NCBI GenBank assembly: GCA_015231405.1 | Contig: JADGBR010000011.1 | Location: forward strand, 1-58,482 | From: Candidatus Omnitrophota bacterium | GTDB lineage: Bacteria > Omnitrophota > Gorgyraeia > Tantalellales > Tantalellaceae | Length of the DNA: 58,482 nucleotides | Direction of reading: 5' to 3' | Part shown: positions 50,061 through 58,482 of the stretch, piece after piece | Numbering within the stretch: position 1 is the first letter of the stretch | How the letters are laid out: the number at the start of each line of letters is the position of its first letter | Made by a program: the position numbers and the translations under genes | Notes under the pieces: generated by a model | What the model saw: the letters and a program-made list of their open reading frames with translations, nothing else | What the model was told of the DNA's origin: nothing | The model's database searches: none

Positions 50061-50189
50061 TGGTGTATTCTATGACTGGAATATTATGTTAATATTTCAA
50101 AAATCTAGCATATTTATTTGTCTTCCCCCAATCCCCCGGGTAATCTTGAATATGTCACTTTTAGTTTATTAACAAAGGGATTTTTCTGC

Positions 50190-53100
50190 ATGAAATGTAA
50201 ATACTTTATAAAATTCACTTCGATCCTGATTACTGCTTCTTTTCTTTCAAGCAGTACTTTGGGCTATGCTCGGGAGGAATTCGGCGGGGTTGCCCCTATC
50301 CGCGAGGACAGAGAGGCTGCTATAAGTATTAACAACACAGTTAATGTGCCGGCTTCTTTGGGAAGGGTGAAGAGATCATTTTCGGGAAAGGAAGGAGATG
50401 GGCCTTCCCTTATTCATATCCAGGACGCACATTGCGTTTATCCCTGCCAGGAGAGGATAAATTCCATTCTCGAACGGGTCGAAAAAGACCGTGGCATAAG
50501 AAGGATCTTCCTCGAGGGCGGGTCGGGGGCTTATGACCTTACGATCTTCAGGCAGATACCGGACAGGGAACTCAGACGGAAGGTCACGGATGTATTTCTA
50601 GAGGAGGGCATCATTAACGCGGCGGAGTATTTCGCCGCGAATAGCGCGAGGGAAATAGAGGTGACAGGCGTCGAGGATAAGGACCTGTATATAAAGAATC
50701 TCGGAGTTTTCAGGAACGCGAATAACTCTATAGCCGCTGAACTTGGTTCATTGGAAAAGTTCAACGGGGTTATCAAAAAAATAGCGGCCGGAGTCTTTTC
50801 GGATAAGCTGGTCGAGTTTTACAGGTATTACCTGGGATATAAACTGGATAAAATTGGCCTGGCCGAATATATCATCTACCTGAGAAGGGCTTTGGCGCCG
50901 TTCCCCGGCCGAAAAACACCGGGAGAGGGGAATATTGACAGGCTCGTTAAACTTTTTTCGATGGAGGAAGCCATTGATTTTAAAAAAGCAGAGAAGGAAA
51001 GGGCGAACCTAATGGATCTTCTTTTCAAGACCCTCCCGAACTCGATGAAAGAGACACTGGTGAATGAAATGATCGAATACAAAAAAGGAGGGCTTTCGGA
51101 CCTGGAGTTCAACGAATCTGTCTGGGGCCTCTTCGGGAAGACGGCGATCAAGTCCGGGGCTGAATACGAGGAGCTCGCGAAATATCTCGAGTATCTAAGG
51201 GAATGGTCGGGCGTCGACAGCCTTAAGCTGATGAGCGAGATCCCTCTCATGGAAAGCGAGCTTAAGAGCCTCATCCCCTCTAGCGCAAGTGAAAAGGCCA
51301 TTATCGGTATCTGGGACAGGGTCGATAAGGTGGAAAAGATACTGGGCTATAAACTTACGAGCACTGAATACAGTGACATCAGATCCGACCCGGATAAATA
51401 CACTTTTGGGGCGATCCTAGCCGATATGAAAAAAGTTTTCGGGCCGGAGTTCTCAGGCGATATAGGATCTCTCGACCTCGAGCTCAAGAAAAACGATCCG
51501 GAGGATCGTTTCATAAAGGATATTTTCGAGTTTTATGAATTTTCTTTCGAGAGAGATGACGTATTCGTGTCAAAGATCTCGGCCGGACGGTCCGGGGGAG
51601 AAGGGCAGGGCGGAGGAGCGGACGTTTTCATGACGGGCGGGTTCCATACGGACAATATCTGCGGGCTTTTTGAGAAGAAAGGGGTTTCTTATGTTTCGAT
51701 CATCCCGAAGTTCGACAACGAGGAAGGTTCGTCGGAGAGATACTTCGGCATACTCGCCGGTACGAGGACCGGGCTCGTGGGAAACATAAACGCGGCGATG
51801 TCGAATCTCCAGGTCCCGTCGCTCCTGGACGCGGCGCTCGGCGAGGAAGTGTGGGGGAAAGGCGGAATAGAGAGGATGGAAGCGGCGGTATATGTGCAGA
51901 CTCTGGCCTTTAAGGGATACAGGGTGGAGATATACGACAAAGGCACGGGCGAAACAGTTTTTTCTTACGGTCGAGGCGTAATACTTCTCCGGTGCTCCAA
52001 AGAGGATTTTCCGCGCGCGGTGCATGAGAGATTTATGGCAGAGACCCAGGGGCATGGGTCGGAGGGCAAGGCGGAAGTTCCGGACGATGCGGATGTGGAT
52101 GAGGCGAATGTCCGTAAAATCCTTGATGAGAGGAAGTATCTGGAGGATGAAGAGCTCTCGTCCATTGTCGAGGATATCATAATGCTGCACGAGCAATTCG
52201 ACAGGGAACTTGAAGGCACAAGGAAAGGGTCGAACGATCCGGCGAGATACAAAATATCCATACGCGAGATAAAAAGGTTCTCCGATAATTTCAAGCAATT
52301 GTTCCAGGCACTGTTGAATGGAGGAAAAACACGAAAAGAAGCCATTAAGGAAGCTAAAATTCAAGCCTTAAAAAATATTTATGCCGATATGTCAGACGTG
52401 GGGCAGAAAGATCGTGGATTCGGGAGAATAATGTTCGAAGAGATATGCCGGAACACAAGTTATCCCTGGCCGCAGCCAGGGGCGGACGGTATAGTCCCTG
52501 GGCAACAGATACAGGAGTGGATGGAACGCATGATGAGAGAAGCTGCTGGAGGCATCCGGGAAGCCCAGGAGATCGCCCGGGACATAAAAGAGTTTCTTGA
52601 CGGTAATGAAAATAATATTTTCGACCAAACGTACGCCAAGCTCGTTCGCGCGATAGAGGGCGGCATACCGTCCCTGTTCATAAAGGAGAAAGACACGCTC
52701 GGGGCCCTCGAGCGGGCGATAAAGAAATACTCGGAAAAGCCGGGCGTCAAGGTCGAGAAGATGGAATGCACGCCGTACAGCGACTCGGCCCAGCTTATCG
52801 GCGGGTTCATGCCGAAGGGCAGGGTCGATGTGAAGAAAGCTTACGAGAATGTCGGCGAGGCGATAGCCGGCAAGGGTAAGCTATCGGTCGTCGAGATCCT
52901 GGCGGAACTTCTCGATAAAACGAAAGACGAGGTTACCGAAAAAGAAATACAAGATTTCACGGATATCTTTAACGACGGACAGAATGCGGACGAGGGGCTT
53001 ATCATAGCCGCGGCGATGATAATAGAGGATTCGAAGACCTGGCGGAACAAGCTTAATTATGAAAATGGCCTCCTGGCCCGTATCGTCAAGCAATGCAACG

Positions 53101-56100
53101 AGGATAAGGGAACGACATATATCTTCAACATACAGGATATCGAGGCCTTGCCCGCAAGGATCCGCGCCCAGCTTAACGCGTTCCTCCTTACCGGCGAGCT
53201 CCGCGTGCCGGGCGCTCCGAAAGAAGAGGACAGGAAACTCATCGCCCCGAAGAACTTGAGGATAATAGCGTCGATGAGCGAGGAAGCGGTCCTCGAGGAC
53301 GGGGCATTCTACGACAGGTTCCTTAGGAAGAAAGTGGCATCAGCCGATGGAAATGATATTAAAGCTCTTATTAAAATGGATCATCCCAAGATCAATGACG
53401 CGGTGATCGAGTTTCTGCTCAAAGTAAAAGAGCAATTTAATAAAGCCGATATAAGTTGCGCTTATGTGGATCTAGTGAACATAGCCACTTACACCGCTAA
53501 GTCGTGGGAAAAACTTGAAGGAGCGCGTGACCAGTTAGACGTATGCGAGTATGAGGCTAGAATATATTTTGAGTCTTCGCTCAAGACGCGAGCAGAAAGG
53601 GTAAAGATAAAATTTAAGCTTATGGAGACAGGAAAATTCAAAGGCGCTCCTGTTATGTCCCCGGCGCCAGCGGCACCTTTAGCCCCTTCAGCCCCTTCAG
53701 CCCCTTCGCCGATGCCAGTACCCGCGCCAAGTGTATTGCCGGGGAACGTTCCGCCTTCGCAGTTTAGTCCGATAGTTGCCGGCGATGAGCAGAAGAAGAA
53801 AATGTTCCGGATATCAGTTTTCATAATGTATGTCAGGAATGTTACGGGGAGTAATATAACGATCAGCGAATTGATGGGTTATCTTATCAATAATGCCGAT
53901 GTGATAAAAACGAGATTTGGGGAAGAGCTCCATAATGAAGTAGTAGCATTTCTGGCAGAAGCTGTTGGCAGGTTAGGAGACATAAGTATTGATCAGTTCC
54001 CGGCTGATCAAGCGGGTGTGAAAATAGGAACACATTTCGCTAGCCCTCTTAATAAGAAGATCCTGGACGCGAGATATGACAGTGCCGAACGCCGCGTCTT
54101 TTTCGATAACGACGGCCCGGGTCTCAAAATAAACAAGAACATAGCCGGACGGCTGGACAAATACATGGCCGGAAAGAAACTATCCCTTGGCGTCCTGGAG
54201 TTTACTTCGGGACAGGAGGACGAGATCATAACGGCATTCTTTTTGGACGAGCTGGATTACTTCATAGACACCGACGAAAAACGCATGCTCTCATCCGTCG
54301 CCCGGTCCATGGAATACGGTAACGGCGTCATAAGGATCGAAGGCGCGACGGGCGCGGGTAAAACTTATACCGCGGAGGTGCTGTCCCGGATCATGGATTT
54401 CGGCGACGAGATAAGGCCGCGTTTTTACGCGGAGCCCGTGAACAAGGAGACGAAGCTCGCCCGTTTCCTCGGATATTTCCGGGCCGATAAATACGGGTAT
54501 TATTCCATAGACCAGACAACTCCCTTCCTGGATATCATTAAACACGGCGGCGTAGCCGCCATATCCGAGATAAATACGGCGGTCAAGGACGAGTACTCGA
54601 AACTCGCCTGGTGGTTCATACAGTTCGCCCGCGGTGATAAGGAGATATTTCTCAACGAATACCCGCGTAAGGGCGATGACGGCGCGATAAGCCCTTCGGT
54701 GAGGCGCCATCCGAAGTCGTTAATAATATTCGACGTCAATCCCGAGGATTTCGAGGGAAGGGGCAAATTCCCGAGGGAACTTATCGAGAATACCCCGAGC
54801 GTTTATGTTGAGCAGAAGATGAACGATGTTGGTCATATAAAGAAAGTGACTAGAGCCTTTCTTAAACACCTGGAAGACGGCGGGACGAAGGACCAGCTGG
54901 TCGAATTCATTTCCCAGGCGCATATCGCCGTATTTGACAAAATAAAAGTAGCCAATGAGAACGGAGACAGGTACCCGCCTTTAAGCTACAGGGAACTGGC
55001 GAGGGTCACGAGGAGCATACTCGCTGGGCTCGCCATGAATGAGTCCCTGGTCATGGCTGAAAAAGCGGTGAACAAATATTACATCAAGGCGTTCGTTTCG
55101 GAACAGATAAAAAGCGATCTGAAAACAGAGCTTGACTTGTGGTCGGCTACGGAGGAGAGGGACGAGATAATTAAAGATGTCCTTTTCGGGAGACCGGAAG
55201 GAAGAAGCCCGCCGGTCCTTGTCGCGTCGTCTTCCGACGAAGACCCGTTCGGGGACATCGATTCGGCGGTTAATAAGTTCAAAGAAGAAAATCCCGATAA
55301 AAAACTTTACCGTGAACGCGTAAGAATAACCTGGTTCGACGACGAGTTCAAGCTGTTCGGCGGGTTCCTGCCTATATCCCTCAGGGAAAAAGCCTCGACC
55401 GCCTCGGCTAGATTGAAGACTTTACTCGCCGACGGGGAGACAAGAGCTAAAGCTAACGGCATATACCGCGAGATCCGGAAAGAGAGCGGCCAGCCGGAAC
55501 AGGACCTCCCGGAAGATATTTCGGGGCTGGACGACGGCTATATCCTTTCCCTAAGCGAGGCGCTTGACCCTTTGAACAGTAAACAGGAATGGCGCCAGGC
55601 GCTCAGGTATGAGAACGGAATTATACCGCGTCTTATCGACGAGGCAAGTAAGGAAAAAGAGAAGAACGGCGACAAGGCCAAAATATTCATTATCGAACTC
55701 GAGAATATCCACAGGATAAAGCCGGGCCTCGCCGTCGCTTTCAACACCATTCTCCAGGAAGGGTACTATTACGACCCCGTCGACAAGGTTAGAAAACAGG
55801 TCCCGGACAATCTAAAATTCGTGGCGACAAGTATAACCGAAGCGGCACTCCCGTTCTCCGTAGCGGAAGAATCGAGGTGGGTGAGGCTTAAACAGAGCGA
55901 AAGAGTTCTTGATATGACAGCTTCGGACGCCGAATTGATGCTGAAAGGATGCGCGGTCAGTATCGGCAATAAGGTGAGAAAAGGGATGGGGATAGATATC
56001 GTCACCCCTGGGCTGGCCGTTAATAAATATTCGAACGAAATATGCGAATTTCTTGAACCTTTCCTGAGGCGGAACGCCGTTTCGAGCAAGGAGGCGAAGC

Positions 56101-58482
56101 TGTTCATCGCGGATATATTCAGGGAGATATACAGCCGCGCGAAAGACGGAGAGATAGATATGGATAACGCCGGGTTACTTGAACTCATGAAAAGGACTTT
56201 CTTTTTGTCCGCCATGATGTCCTGGCGCGGCCATCCGGCGGAGGACGAAGAAAAAGCCGCGGCGCGTAAATACTATGACGAGACGCTTAAGGAGAGGACC
56301 CCGTCCGTGGAAGACCTTCTCGAGGAAATACCCGAGCTGGTCCGCGTCGAGGCAGCCACGTTCCAGGCTTTTAACTCGGGGAGGATAGTCCTCTACGAAG
56401 GTCCGCCGGGCGGCGGTAAGACCGACATGGCCATAGACGTCGCGAGGCGCCTCGGCCTTAAAGATTACCTGTTCTCATGCCACAACAGGGTCCACACTTC
56501 CGAGCTTCTCGGTACTTTCTCACAGCACGAGAACGGCGATTTCTATTACACCGGCGTTCCTGTTCGAGATAATAAGGGCGAACTACATTATCCCGAAGCC
56601 GATTTCCTCGAGGCCATGACGCATGGCGGCGTTTACATCTTCGATGAAGGCGCTATAGGGAAAAGGTCGCAGGAACTTTTAAGCGTCCTATCGGGGCTCG
56701 CCCGCGGCGAAAAGCTTTTCATGCTGAACGAGGTCCCTGGGTATCCGCCTAAAGAGCTTAAAGTGCATAAGGATTTTCATATCATAATAACGATGAACCC
56801 GCCCGAGGACACGGTCGGCAGGGAACCCCTCCCCCTCGAGCTTTACGACAAAGCCCGGAAGATCTGGATAGATAACGGCCTGACCAAAGAGTCGTACAGG
56901 CGGATAATAGGCAAGTTCGTTAAAGTTCACGCCGCGAAATACGGAATAACTCCCGGAGGCATATTTGGCTCGGGATCCGATGACGCCATGGCCTCCTTCG
57001 CTGACGCCCTTACGGTCATACATAAAAAAATGAACGAGATAATAGGGACGAAGATAAGCCTTGCCGAGAATATAGACCTCCATCTGCTCACTCTCCGGGA
57101 CATGAAGGCTCTCGTCAAGGACTTCGTGGAGTATGTCTCCCGTGGTATAGACAAGACCGAGGCTTTAAGGATAGCGGTCCGTACTTCCTATATAGACCAG
57201 TTCAACGAGCTCCGCGACAGGCCCGTCATCGAGGACGAAATGACGCGTTTATTCAAAACGGCCGAATACACAGATCTGATAAAAGACCTGGCAGGTAGGG
57301 GGATAGACCTCGAAAAGTTAATTAAGGGCCTTATGAGTGCAGATCTCGACAAAAATTATCTGGATGATGAAGCTGAGGAAGAAAAAGGCGACTTCCGGGC
57401 CGGGAGCCAGGCGCCTCTGGGCCCCTCGCCGGGGAAACCATTCACGAAACCCGTCATGCCGTTAGGGATAAAAGAGCGGGATATAAATAAGCCTTATGTA
57501 TGGGCTGCCGGAGAAAAAGTAGAACCTGAAGACCGCCCGCTTTGGGATAAGAGAACGTTCCTCATGATAAAAATGGGCTTATTGTTACGTTTTCCCGTAT
57601 GGATATTGAGGACAATATGGGATTGGACGATAGGCTGGATCTTGGAGTGGAGCGATAAAGTGATATACGTTCTGAAAGAGGTCATAAACAAGATAAGAAC
57701 AGAGAAAATATCGGAGTGGGGAACTTGGGATTCCGTTGGGTATTACCGGACATTTCTACAGGGAACACTTCGGAAGGGGCTCGCGTTTATCAGGGAAACG
57801 GAACTCCGGGACAGTGATCTTAAGACCTCAAAGCCCCGGATCTACTCAGAGGGAAAAACAAGGGACGCTTATCTTTACGATTCGCGTGACCCGGATAACC
57901 CTTACGCCAGAGCCGGGATCAGAGGGGTGAGACATATCCCGGACAAGAACAGCATCGCTTCCCTGACGATAGGCGGTAGGGAGCACATAGCCTTCGTTTC
58001 CAAAGACGAACCTAACCAAATAACCGTTATTGACATGTCGACGAGCGGCGGCAAAACCCCGGTCAGGCACATTGTGGCGGGTAAAAGTGCCATTGGCTTC
58101 ATTAAGACCGTCCGGACTGGGGACAGGCAATATCTCGCAGTGGCCGCAGATGAAGCGCGCGGAGGATCGCAACTTATCGACCTTTCCAGGGAAGGGAAGG
58201 AAAGTGTTATTCATCTGGATCTCGGTGCGAGGGATATTGTGGGTATAGACAGAGAAGGCGAGCGTAAGATCGCCGTTATCTCAGGAAGTGTTTTCAGCGG
58301 GAAATCCAATATAAGGGTTATAGACCTCGGCAGGCGGACGCAAAAAATATTTTCCGTGACAGGAGATTTCAAAGTCGCCGGGAAAATGACTTACTTAAAA
58401 GGCAGCAAGAAGGAAAAGGACAGGTTGGCCATAACCGATGGAGGGATGAAAGGTCGTCTCTATTATTACGGGCTTAACACAG
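50190..58482 (+). CDS. Giant exported protein with four tandem AAA modules, 3' end missing
   Basis: Open from the ATG at 50190 through the right edge: 2764 residues visible, no stop. AAGGGA lies about 12 bases before the start. The N-terminus is a signal peptide ('CKYFIKFTSILITASFLSSS', then TLGYA). Layout (residues): a TraB/EreA-like region 70-510; helical region 510-820; AAA module A 820-1050, no P-loop; Pro/Ala/Ser linker 1156-1187; AAA module B 1370-1580, Walker A 'GATGAGKT'; AAA module C 1685-1915, no P-loop; AAA module D 2050-2370, 'GPPGGGKT'; aromatic, hydrophobic helices 2450-2500; and a beta-propeller-like start 2550 onward. Each AAA module has the 'dLlGg..P' or similar motif of the dynein/midasin (AAA_5) group. 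I know of no described bacterial exported protein like this. Confidence 0.88.
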   Translation, partial: MKCKYFIKFTSILITASFLSSSTLGYAREEFGGVAPIREDREAAISINNTVNVPASLGRVKRSFSGKEGDGPSLIHIQDAHCVYPCQERINSILERVEKDRGIRRIFLEGGSGAYDLTIFRQIPDRELRRKVTDVFLEEGIINAAEYFAANSAREIEVTGVEDKDLYIKNLGVFRNANNSIAAELGSLEKFNGVIKKIAAGVFSDKLVEFYRYYLGYKLDKIGLAEYIIYLRRALAPFPGRKTPGEGNIDRLVKLFSMEEAIDFKKAEKERANLMDLLFKTLPNSMKETLVNEMIEYKKGGLSDLEFNESVWGLFGKTAIKSGAEYEELAKYLEYLREWSGVDSLKLMSEIPLMESELKSLIPSSASEKAIIGIWDRVDKVEKILGYKLTSTEYSDIRSDPDKYTFGAILADMKKVFGPEFSGDIGSLDLELKKNDPEDRFIKDIFEFYEFSFERDDVFVSKISAGRSGGEGQGGGADVFMTGGFHTDNICGLFEKKGVSYVSIIPKFDNEEGSSERYFGILAGTRTGLVGNINAAMSNLQVPSLLDAALGEEVWGKGGIERMEAAVYVQTLAFKGYRVEIYDKGTGETVFSYGRGVILLRCSKEDFPRAVHERFMAETQGHGSEGKAEVPDDADVDEANVRKILDERKYLEDEELSSIVEDIIMLHEQFDRELEGTRKGSNDPARYKISIREIKRFSDNFKQLFQALLNGGKTRKEAIKEAKIQALKNIYADMSDVGQKDRGFGRIMFEEICRNTSYPWPQPGADGIVPGQQIQEWMERMMREAAGGIREAQEIARDIKEFLDGNENNIFDQTYAKLVRAIEGGIPSLFIKEKDTLGALERAIKKYSEKPGVKVEKMECTPYSDSAQLIGGFMPKGRVDVKKAYENVGEAIAGKGKLSVVEILAELLDKTKDEVTEKEIQDFTDIFNDGQNADEGLIIAAAMIIEDSKTWRNKLNYENGLLARIVKQCNEDKGTTYIFNIQDIEALPARIRAQLNAFLLTGELRVPGAPKEEDRKLIAPKNLRIIASMSEEAVLEDGAFYDRFLRKKVASADGNDIKALIKMDHPKINDAVIEFLLKVKEQFNKADISCAYVDLVNIATYTAKSWEKLEGARDQLDVCEYEARIYFESSLKTRAERVKIKFKLMETGKFKGAPVMSPAPAAPLAPSAPSAPSPMPVPAPSVLPGNVPPSQFSPIVAGDEQKKKMFRISVFIMYVRNVTGSNITISELMGYLINNADVIKTRFGEELHNEVVAFLAEAVGRLGDISIDQFPADQAGVKIGTHFASPLNKKILDARYDSAERRVFFDNDGPGLKINKNIAGRLDKYMAGKKLSLGVLEFTSGQEDEIITAFFLDELDYFIDTDEKRMLSSVARSMEYGNGVIRIEGATGAGKTYTAEVLSRIMDFGDEIRPRFYAEPVNKETKLARFLGYFRADKYGYYSIDQTTPFLDIIKHGGVAAISEINTAVKDEYSKLAWWFIQFARGDKEIFLNEYPRKGDDGAISPSVRRHPKSLIIFDVNPEDFEGRGKFPRELIENTPSVYVEQKMNDVGHIKKVTRAFLKHLEDGGTKDQLVEFISQAHIAVFDKIKVANENGDRYPPLSYRELARVTRSILAGLAMNESLVMAEKAVNKYYIKAFVSEQIKSDLKTELDLWSATEERDEIIKDVLFGRPEGRSPPVLVASSSDEDPFGDIDSAVNKFKEENPDKKLYRERVRITWFDDEFKLFGGFLPISLREKASTASARLKTLLADGETRAKANGIYREIRKESGQPEQDLPEDISGLDDGYILSLSEALDPLNSKQEWRQALRYENGIIPRLIDEASKEKEKNGDKAKIFIIELENIHRIKPGLAVAFNTILQEGYYYDPVDKVRKQVPDNLKFVATSITEAALPFSVAEESRWVRLKQSERVLDMTASDAELMLKGCAVSIGNKVRKGMGIDIVTPGLAVNKYSNEICEFLEPFLRRNAVSSKEAKLFIADIFREIYSRAKDGEIDMDNAGLLELMKRTFFLSAMMSWRGHPAEDEEKAAARKYYDETLKERTPSVEDLLEEIPELVRVEAATFQAFNSGRIVLYEGPPGGGKTDMAIDVARRLGLKDYLFSCHNRVHTSELLGTFSQHENGDFYYTGVPVRDNKGELHYPEADFLEAMTHGGVYIFDEGAIGKRSQELLSVLSGLARGEKLFMLNEVPGYPPKELKVHKDFHIIITMNPPEDTVGREPLPLELYDKARKIWIDNGLTKESYRRIIGKFVKVHAAKYGITPGGIFGSGSDDAMASFADALTVIHKKMNEIIGTKISLAENIDLHLLTLRDMKALVKDFVEYVSRGIDKTEALRIAVRTSYIDQFNELRDRPVIEDEMTRLFKTAEYTDLIKDLAGRGIDLEKLIKGLMSADLDKNYLDDEAEEEKGDFRAGSQAPLGPSPGKPFTKPVMPLGIKERDINKPYVWAAGEKVEPEDRPLWDKRTFLMIKMGLLLRFPVWILRTIWDWTIGWILEWSDKVIYVLKEVINKIRTEKISEWGTWDSVGYYRTFLQGTLRKGLAFIRETELRDSDLKTSKPRIYSEGKTRDAYLYDSRDPDNPYARAGIRGVRHIPDKNSIASLTIGGREHIAFVSKDEPNQITVIDMSTSGGKTPVRHIVAGKSAIGFIKTVRTGDRQYLAVAADEARGGSQLIDLSREGKESVIHLDLGARDIVGIDREGERKIAVISGSVFSGKSNIRVIDLGRRTQKIFSVTGDFKVAGKMTYLKGSKKEKDRLAITDGGMKGRLYYYGLNT
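50400..51720 (+). other. Domain: TraB/EreA/ChaN-like N-terminal region
   Basis: Residues 71-511. 'LIHIQDAHCVYPCQERINSI' opens the domain, followed by 'IRRIFLEGGSGAYDL' and 'REIEVTGVEDKDLYIKN'. It closes with 'VFMTGGFHTDNICGLFEKKG' and 'VSYVSIIPK'. The paired His motifs, the acidic 'LEG' strand and the closing 'G.H...l..ll...G..y' resemble the TraB/TIKI/EreA superfamily of metal-dependent hydrolases. This is recognition by eye; the family is uncertain. Confidence 0.4.
52650..53340 (+). other. Domain: AAA module A, P-loop lost
   Basis: Residues 821-1050. 'GIPSLFIKEKDTLGALERAI' occupies the Walker A position, but the G..GK core is gone. The AAA_5 motif follows in 'CTPYSDSAQLIGGFMPKG'. The later 'ALPARIRAQLNAFLLTGELR' and 'APKNLRIIASMSEEAVLEDG' match the region after Walker B and the sensor 1 strand. 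A non-hydrolysing, structural AAA unit is likely. Confidence 0.65.
54300..54930 (+). other. Domain: AAA module B, P-loop present
   Basis: Residues 1371-1580. Walker A is 'GATGAGKT' (1385-1392). 'KETKLARFLGYF' is the AAA_5 post-Walker motif. The Walker B equivalent is 'GGVAAISEINTA', with the Glu kept but Ser in place of the usual Asp. 'PKSLIIFDVNPEDFEGRGKF' matches sensor 1 ('...NP'). ATP binding is likely; hydrolysis is uncertain. Confidence 0.8.
55240..55940 (+). other. Domain: AAA module C, P-loop lost
   Basis: Residues 1684-1917. No Walker A. The AAA_5 motif is in 'DDEFKLFGGFLPI'. 'KIFIIELENIHRIKPGLAVA' replaces Walker B, and 'LQEGYYYDP', then 'VPDNLKFVATSITEAALPFS', gives the sensor 1 region. 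It is related in layout to module A. Confidence 0.6.
56340..57300 (+). other. Domain: AAA module D, canonical ATPase
   Basis: Residues 2051-2370. Walker A 'EGPPGGGKTDMA' (core 2071-2078), 'TSELLGTFSQHENGDF', Walker B 'GGVYIFDEGAI' and sensor 1 'DFHIIITMNPPEDTVGREPL' are all intact. This is the module most likely to hydrolyse ATP. The layout resembles MoxR, McrB and midasin-type AAA_5 ATPases. Confidence 0.88.
57540..58482 (+). other. Hydrophobic helices and start of a propeller-like domain
   Basis: Residues 2451-2764. An aromatic hydrophobic stretch ('LMIKMGLLLRFPVWILRTIW', then 'TIGWILEWSDKVIYVL') may associate with the membrane. After it come short repeated beta units with Asp-rich turns ('REHIAFVSKDEPNQITVIDM', 'DRQYLAVAADEARGGSQLID', 'ERKIAVISGSVFSGKSNIRV'), as in beta-propellers. 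It continues past the window edge. Confidence 0.55.

Follow-up and report, generated by a model that had tools for sequence, protein, structure and literature searches.

Six AAA modules within one polypeptide have been treated as special to dynein and midasin (PMC4047620, PMC6286127), and RNF213 was later added to these six-AAA single chains (PMC7311170), all three proteins being eukaryotic. In Rea1, as midasin is also called, AAA2, AAA4 and AAA6 carry helical H2 inserts, and the arginine finger of AAA5 serves the site of AAA4, an AAA+ finger acting on the site of the preceding module (PMC6286127). According to Kaur et al., midasin is a eukaryotic case of the MoxR-vWA systems (PMC7159879), and ring-driven pulling has been proposed for both midasin (PMC11603028) and NorQD (PMC13036017), with CobS-CobT also named as a two-protein parallel. 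A search of open-access papers, with subscription papers and preprints outside its scope, yielded none on a bacterial midasin. The giant ORFs of Omnitrophota are described in the phylum survey as poorly understood, with functions that are hard to assess (PMC10066038), and the searched passages of that survey mention neither AAA, MoxR nor dynein.

The window, which is the whole stretch of 58,482 nucleotides analysed here, is part of contig C2 (87,979 bp) in a 3.66-Mb Omnitrophota genome assembly (G000). A frame at 50118-58481 (+) is open through to the window end and contains no N, and the likely start Met of its protein lies at 50190 (MKCKYFIK). The following features were mapped along it:

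50190..50270, + strand, predicted Sec-type signal peptide MKCKYFIKFTSILITASFLSSSTLGYA, with three Lys in the n-region, a hydrophobic core and an AxA-like end, acidic thereafter
50271..51990, + strand, N-terminal cassette of ~575 aa (HIQDAH ... LEGGSG ... GGFHT), from matches in related genomes
52629..53486, + strand, AAA module A, insert type, without P-loop, arginine finger FYDRF at 53307 (profile homology, AF2, Foldseek, residue counts)
54243..54893, + strand, AAA module B, compact type, P-loop GATGAGKT at 54342-54365, finger lost (IENTP) (profiles, residue counts)
55233..55898, + strand, AAA module C, insert type, without P-loop, arginine finger kept (EESRWVR) (profiles, residue counts)
56307..56948, + strand, AAA module D, compact type, P-loop GPPGGGKT at 56400-56423, Lys at the finger position (Pfam AAA_5, residue counts)
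57846..58481, + strand, start of a predicted beta-propeller region, with WD40-like repeats continuing past the window (alignment to a 6174-aa paralog)
58482..58482, + strand, window end, one base ahead of a 10-N scaffold gap

The sequence-only reading had proposed a bacterial chain with a signal-peptide-like start and tandem AAA modules, and this arrangement was borne out and recurs in many relatives. All four of its post-Walker motifs were located (LIGGFMPK at 52794, RFLGYF at 54462, LFGGFLPI at 55353 and ELLGTFSQ at 56502), the P-loops were indeed retained in B (GATGAGKT, 54342) and D (GPPGGGKT, 56400) and gone from A and C, and the frameshift or assembly join between B and D that would have undone the proposal is absent, the frame being open with 0 N in the window. 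The WD40-like repeats inside the window are inferred from the sequence only, and the Pfam WD40 matches come from the continuation (L009:8520-12500). In 33 of 39 related genomes, most query matches fell on residues ~30-620, that is, the N-terminal cassette, near the starts of other giant frames. The cassette had no PDB match and only a weak match to the ChaN/Tiki superfamily (PF04187), in two of ten members (best E 0.0087). As a separate observation, its HIQDAH...LEGG...GGFHT pattern recurs near the starts of many different Omnitrophota giant proteins (L021-L038). No conserved neighbour genes were found between the paralogous loci.

Module D matched Pfam AAA_5 at 43 bits (cut-off 22; E 5.6e-11), while modules A, B and C taken singly had no Pfam match above the cut-off. 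Used by itself as a query against PDB and Pfam, the window protein revealed only D and part of B, and NCBIfam gave only distant GvpN/CobS-type matches. Since single-sequence searches were too insensitive, profiles were used instead. With hhalign the modules split into two homologous sets, A-C-E and B-D-F, and A, C and E were mutually homologous at 98.7-99.6%. Compared with the canonical AAA modules of relatives, C and E reached 94% and 95%, and A alone just 77%; the 94% of C refers to canonical modules 4 and 6, and C also aligned over its full length with module 3 of relatives. In addition, iterative HMMs started from A reached the P-loop AAA modules of two relatives, G062 and G051. The earlier assignment of A and C to the AAA modules is supported by these profile matches in place of Pfam matches. 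An AF2 model of A built from nine homologous rows was partly confident (pLDDT 66.8), and its best PDB matches in Foldseek were the AAA+ domains of McrB, NorQ, Rea1, CbbQ and BchI, with E-values of 7e-6 to 8e-5 and TM about 0.3 for the MoxR-clade AAA+ (McrB, NorQ, Rea1); the alignment behind this model contained real AAA sequences, which is a possible bias. A was folded alone and B-C-D together, because an A-B-C alignment misplaced the Walker B half of A owing to the insert length. The B-C-D model was of low confidence (pLDDT 49, pTM 0.35), and the 50 best Foldseek matches listed for it were dynein motors, over ~1100 residues, with E 4.7e-21 and TM ~0.2. Neither this model nor its TM-scores are informative on module packing, and ring geometry was shown by neither of the two models. 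Judged by the Pfam match of D and by the Walker A Lys and Walker B Glu, each kept 14/14 in B, D and F of its class, the window protein is a member of the MoxR/AAA_5 (H2-insert) clade of AAA+, and A, C and E are assigned to AAA as well.

The count of four modules, as previously read, is a cut-off effect, because a 10-N run, a scaffold join of unknown true size, starts 1 bp past the window end (C2:58483). When the contig was followed further, as had been advised, two more AAA modules, E and F, were found behind the gap. They lie in a downstream ORF of 3131 aa (G000:C2:58519-67914, equal to L009:8520-17915), in a different frame from the window frame, which encodes WD40-like repeats, modules E and F, an HExxH region, an acidic Gly-rich stretch and FTADLSGSM, a MIDAS motif. 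All four modules first described are thus real, but the unit has six AAA modules and a putative C-terminal MIDAS domain. This unit is deduced for G000 because an ungapped paralog, C11b (G000:C11:410923-429444), carries everything from the predicted signal peptide to MIDAS in a single frame of 6174 aa without N. C11b matches the window protein at 57% over 2836 residues, and beyond the window it matches the distal part of C2 (E to the C-terminus) at 56% and the WD40-like middle at 31%. A second paralog, C33b (G000:C33:131337-146684; 5116 aa, no N), has its parts in the same order. As read from these frames, the order in G000 is predicted signal peptide, N-terminal cassette, AAA A-D, the WD40-like region between the fourth and fifth AAA modules, AAA E-F, HExxH region and MIDAS, the D-E link of C2 itself being inferred from the paralogs. 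G000 holds at least six such six-AAA genes or pieces (C2, C11b, C33b, C11a, C11c and C13a) as well as the contig-edge fragments C64 and C13b, and most drawn genomes of its own family have no six-AAA paralogs. C11a has no detectable MIDAS domain, and two other giants, C55 and C33a, were excluded from the family with two AAA-like modules each.

Module profiles were run on giant frames. In 23 relatives, which come from more than 15 genomes, the sequence was of sufficient length for a count, and each of them contained exactly six AAA modules; some of the 23 run off a contig end, and six is a minimum there. These proteins form two classes, a six-P-loop class, with P-loop, Walker B and sensor 1 in every module, and a divergent class, which includes the window protein. 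G076, of the six-P-loop class, is complete from the signal-like N-terminus through MIDAS in 6470 aa, and G051 and G062, whose class within the phylum is that of the window genome, have six midasin-like modules. AAA and vWA were found together in one frame in C11b, C33b, G181, G066, G070, G076, G051 and G062. Among 384 genomes drawn from the phylum, 50 gave some match to the window profile and 39 to the six-P-loop profile, many of them carrying only single MoxR-type AAA proteins. In named records the six-P-loop family occurs in Candidatus Omnitrophota, with one record labelled Auribacterota (L114) and one Chlamydiota (L115). The Chlamydiota record (JACPWU010000039.1) and the Auribacterota record (JAVCCS010000241.1, cut after two modules) may mean that the family reaches beyond Omnitrophota, or that the bins are mislabelled. 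The contig scan for further relatives used one short peptide pattern, MSEAFMN, and proves no absence elsewhere. Another six-AAA relative, G067:C61, lies inside a reported open frame of 15,970 aa, one piece of which is reported with an internal TAA. Among plasmids and phages, no record matched as much as 80% of the query at a single place, and the matches there were partial ones to MoxR/CobS-like AAA. The two AAA matches from viral contigs were weak (27% identity). Eukaryotic contamination was considered and ruled out by the intron-free bacterial frames, by several paralogs in one MAG and by relatives in many Omnitrophota MAGs.

For the divergent class (the window protein and 13 other members), alignment with the six-P-loop class served to identify the catalytic residues. 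Taken together, modules A, C and E lack the Walker A Lys (0/42) and the Walker B Glu (0/42) and always keep the arginine finger (42/42), while B, D and F always have both the Lys (42/42) and the Glu (42/42) and carry a finger in merely two of 42 cases, both in D. Taken per module over the 14 members, A has Lys 0/14, Glu 0/14 and finger 14/14, C has finger 14/14, B has Lys 14/14, Glu 14/14 and finger 0/14, and D has finger 2/14. The earlier view that A and C are inactive is right as to their lost P-loops, but the arginine finger is kept in every member checked and complements B, D and F. From this split of P-loops and fingers, three composite ATP sites are predicted, B|C, D|E and F|A, the last of which requires the chain to close on itself. 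In the absence of any biochemistry, the residue pattern argues strongly for A, C and E being functional AAA modules rather than relics, and for selection on ATP hydrolysis.

When the six-AAA regions of relatives with six P-loops were compared with the PDB by phmmer, midasin was far the best match, both for G076 (2.3e-88, with CobS second at 3.4e-10) and for G062 (8.5e-164, best single domain 112 bits, with CobS second at 6.2e-13); per-domain scores are the fairer measure, because the totals sum six-by-six module matches. A profile of the compact modules of the six-P-loop class likewise hit midasin at 1.9e-121 (runner-up 1.6e-11) and that of the insert modules at 6.3e-111 (runner-up 5.2e-5). 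The compact profile fits midasin AAA1, AAA3 and AAA5 as single stretches and the insert profile fits AAA2 and AAA6, which agrees with the insert positions reported for Rea1 (PMC6286127). The module order is shifted by one, as the bacterial chains open with an insert module and midasin with a compact one. Built from 61 module cores (148 columns), the module tree left out the divergent class, and the midasin modules fell in its poorly resolved base. Within each bacterial lineage, the odd modules formed one group and the even modules another (can_odd 92/100, can_even 99/99, G051/G062 odd 93/97 and even 95/88), which suggests, for the lineages that this tree contains, that an odd-even module pair was tripled. 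Midasin AAA1-6 had no one-by-one pairing with the bacterial modules, and the claim is therefore limited to a protein that would work like midasin or the MoxR-vWA machines, membership of the midasin family not being shown. The modules of G062 (L097) and G051 (L095) look more midasin-like than others (WLVLDELNLA..VLERLNSLLDD), and among bacteria it is from these two proteins that the origin of midasin is best approached.

Past module F, the HExxH, N..ED.RI, DxSGS and a later TD are invariant in ten C-termini. As to the MIDAS signature, DxSGS and the last Asp are invariant in these ten, while the middle-loop Thr is not conserved, and Pfam VWA matches to the C-terminal vWA are below or near the cut-off. 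The C-terminal profile found CobT as its best PDB match (1.3e-6), and the midasin MIDAS domain merely at 0.85. Outside the phylum, the closest relatives with a single AAA are encoded on plasmids, beside a CobT-like gene (Paraburkholderia) or a vWA gene (Salinibaculum). The product of this haloarchaeal vWA gene, which adjoins a CobS-like AAA gene (L123:5953-8853), carries HExxH, a very acidic linker and MIDAS, arranged as in the C-terminus of the Omnitrophota giants. Fusion and multiplication of a CobS/CobT-like MoxR-vWA pair is inferred as the simplest history of the family.

The N-terminus of C2 has three Lys ahead of its hydrophobic stretch and is neutral to acidic behind it, and comparable N-termini were found in every inspected relative with an intact start. 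The ends of this stretch often look alike in giants of G000 and its relatives (FLFEQSVFAQ, LIFEQTGFAQ, ILEDISWAF and FLQQSTFGYAQ), as if they formed a lineage-specific targeting motif. No further hydrophobic (TM) segment was found in C2 or C11b. A core that is positive before and neutral or negative after predicts export of the C-terminal part, and by this charge and hydrophobicity pattern alone the giant is probably moved across the inner membrane. The window contains a second giant gene with a signal-like N-terminus (9499-29913, +; 6804 aa), encoding glutamate dehydrogenase, TPR and HEAT repeats and two HATPase_c domains, along with methyltransferase-like and radical-SAM-like stretches seen by eye, so that cytosol-type enzymes stand behind an apparent export signal. 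The oddity of an ATPase behind a signal peptide, which had been pointed out before, is real but not special to the present gene, since that neighbour poses the same question with its glutamate dehydrogenase and two HATPase_c domains. In this lineage, then, more than one nucleotide-using enzyme follows a signal-like N-terminus, which leaves two options: the proteins meet nucleotides at their destination, or the segment does not export. The ATP source might be the prey or host cytoplasm or a nucleotide-containing envelope space, or the N-terminus might be no export signal; this is unresolved.

Taken together, the window protein probably belongs to a giant single-chain AAA+ machine from the MoxR/midasin/dynein clade, of whose ring it would make up the first two thirds and in which labour is split among six modules. 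The domains, their order, the catalytic residues and their recurrence are observed, whereas ring closure, ATPase activity, MIDAS binding and export are inferred. In such a machine, ATP and the catalytic Glu would sit in B, D and F, with the arginine finger coming from A, C and E, and closure of the chain would give a ring of six modules and three ATP sites (B|C, D|E and F|A). The MIDAS domain would hold a partner protein, and ATP turnover would move the ring and thereby pull, twist or release the partner held there. The WD40-like propellers between D and E are probably extra binding surfaces, and together with the N-terminal cassette they probably select partners or place. Against this reading, E, F and MIDAS of C2 lie behind the gap, with continuity taken from paralogs, the ring is unmodelled, no biochemistry exists, and export is hard to reconcile with ATP.

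It is unlikely, in our judgement, that the giant is instead a polyprotein or string of beads, in which the chain is cut and the modules, or A-B pairs, form ordinary MoxR-type hexamers without a single-chain ring. The separate MoxR-type genes beside CobT/vWA genes that are its nearest single-AAA relatives would fit such a product, as would the insertions of more than 1000 aa between D and E in C2, C11b and C33b, but exactly six modules occur in every full-length relative, the odd and even modules have each specialised and complement one another in a strict order, and most module positions of the canonical class have their own branch in the tree, which identical beads would not need. Structural relics of AAA folds in a surface or adhesin giant outside the cell, using no ATP, would explain the predicted signal peptide with its positive-inside orientation and the loss of Walker A and B in A, C and E, and Omnitrophota giant ORFs are generally discussed as adhesins or predation factors (PMC10066038). 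This explanation seems very doubtful, given that the Lys and Glu of B, D and F and the fingers of A, C and E are kept without exception (42/42 each) and that the six-P-loop class retains all P-loops and NRF motifs at 45-50% overall identity.

A cytoplasmic machine, in which the hydrophobic N-terminus would serve as a membrane anchor or for lineage-specific targeting and the remainder would be cytosolic, clashes with the single-chain ring machine in location only and stays a real if minority possibility. It would suit the conserved P-loops, the lack of another TM segment in C2 and C11b and the similar N-terminus of the neighbouring giant with its glutamate dehydrogenase and two HATPase_c domains, and the charges on either side of the hydrophobic core speak against it by placing the C-terminal part outside. 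True orthology with midasin, that is, descent from one single-chain six-AAA protein with transfer between eukaryotes and these bacteria, appears improbable. Midasin is far the best PDB match, and both proteins alternate compact and helical-insert modules (AAA2, AAA4 and AAA6 in Rea1; PMC6286127) and end in MIDAS, a putative one in the bacterial chains; yet the bacterial odd and even modules group by lineage and not with individual midasin modules, the order opens with the insert module, and the region ahead of MIDAS is CobT-like with HExxH in place of a ~1700-residue linker.

More broadly, and with somewhat less assurance than for the machine itself, we favour the view that eukaryotes did not invent single-chain six-AAA rings of the dynein/midasin kind, and that Omnitrophota, and apparently neighbouring phyla, own a MIDAS-fused family derived from a tripled insert/compact pair, one class of which would be F1-like, with three ATP modules and three finger modules in strict alternation, and would act on the far side of the membrane. 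A bacterial family of six AAA modules and a putative MIDAS domain provides a comparison group for dynein and midasin, by which the origin of single-chain rings becomes testable, and the strict allotment of P-loops to some modules and arginine fingers to others offers a natural experiment on module roles in such rings. If the protein is truly exported, the question becomes where an ATPase of a suspected predator or symbiont finds its energy once it is outside the cytoplasm. For part of the giant ORFs described in the phylum survey (PMC10066038), the present analysis gives a first domain-level reading.

Similar to midasin (Rea1/Mdn1), the Omnitrophota giants have six AAA modules in one chain, an alternation of compact and insert modules, an acidic stretch and what is putatively a C-terminal MIDAS domain. 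Unlike them, midasin is a eukaryotic pre-60S factor with functional AAA2-AAA5, without a signal peptide or WD40 insert, and it has no strict split between P-loop and arginine-finger modules such as the divergent class has. Moreover, ~1700 residues link midasin AAA6 to its D/E-rich and MIDAS parts, whereas ~450-700 residues with HExxH...N..ED.RI occupy this place in Omnitrophota. RNF213 (mysterin) is also a giant chain with six AAA units of which few are active (PMC7311170), but it is eukaryotic, carries a RING E3 ligase module and has no MIDAS.

Dynein heavy chain likewise has six AAA modules in one chain, some of them without catalytic function, and the low-confidence B-C-D model matched dynein AAA1-3 in Foldseek. 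Its stalk, microtubule-binding domain and linker were not recognised in the Omnitrophota sequence, which in turn has a putative MIDAS; no Pfam match to the dynein linker or stalk was present in the window protein, nor among the best 25 families listed for the AAA region of G076. The two-gene systems of MoxR/CobS with CobT/vWA (NorQD, CbbQO and RavA-ViaA) share the AAA_5 H2-insert clade with the giants and have a vWA/MIDAS partner where the giants have their putative MIDAS domain, and their CobT-like partners have an acidic linker as the giants do. These systems consist of separate genes and a homohexamer with six equal P-loops, while in Omnitrophota six diverged modules are fused and apparently exported. 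Finally, in the BchI-BchD magnesium chelatase and the alpha/beta subunits of F1-ATPase, active subunits alternate with catalytically silent ones that give arginine fingers. Unlike the single-chain Omnitrophota giants, both are built from separate subunits, and F1 stands outside AAA+, but their trimer-of-dimers logic is the one predicted for the divergent class.
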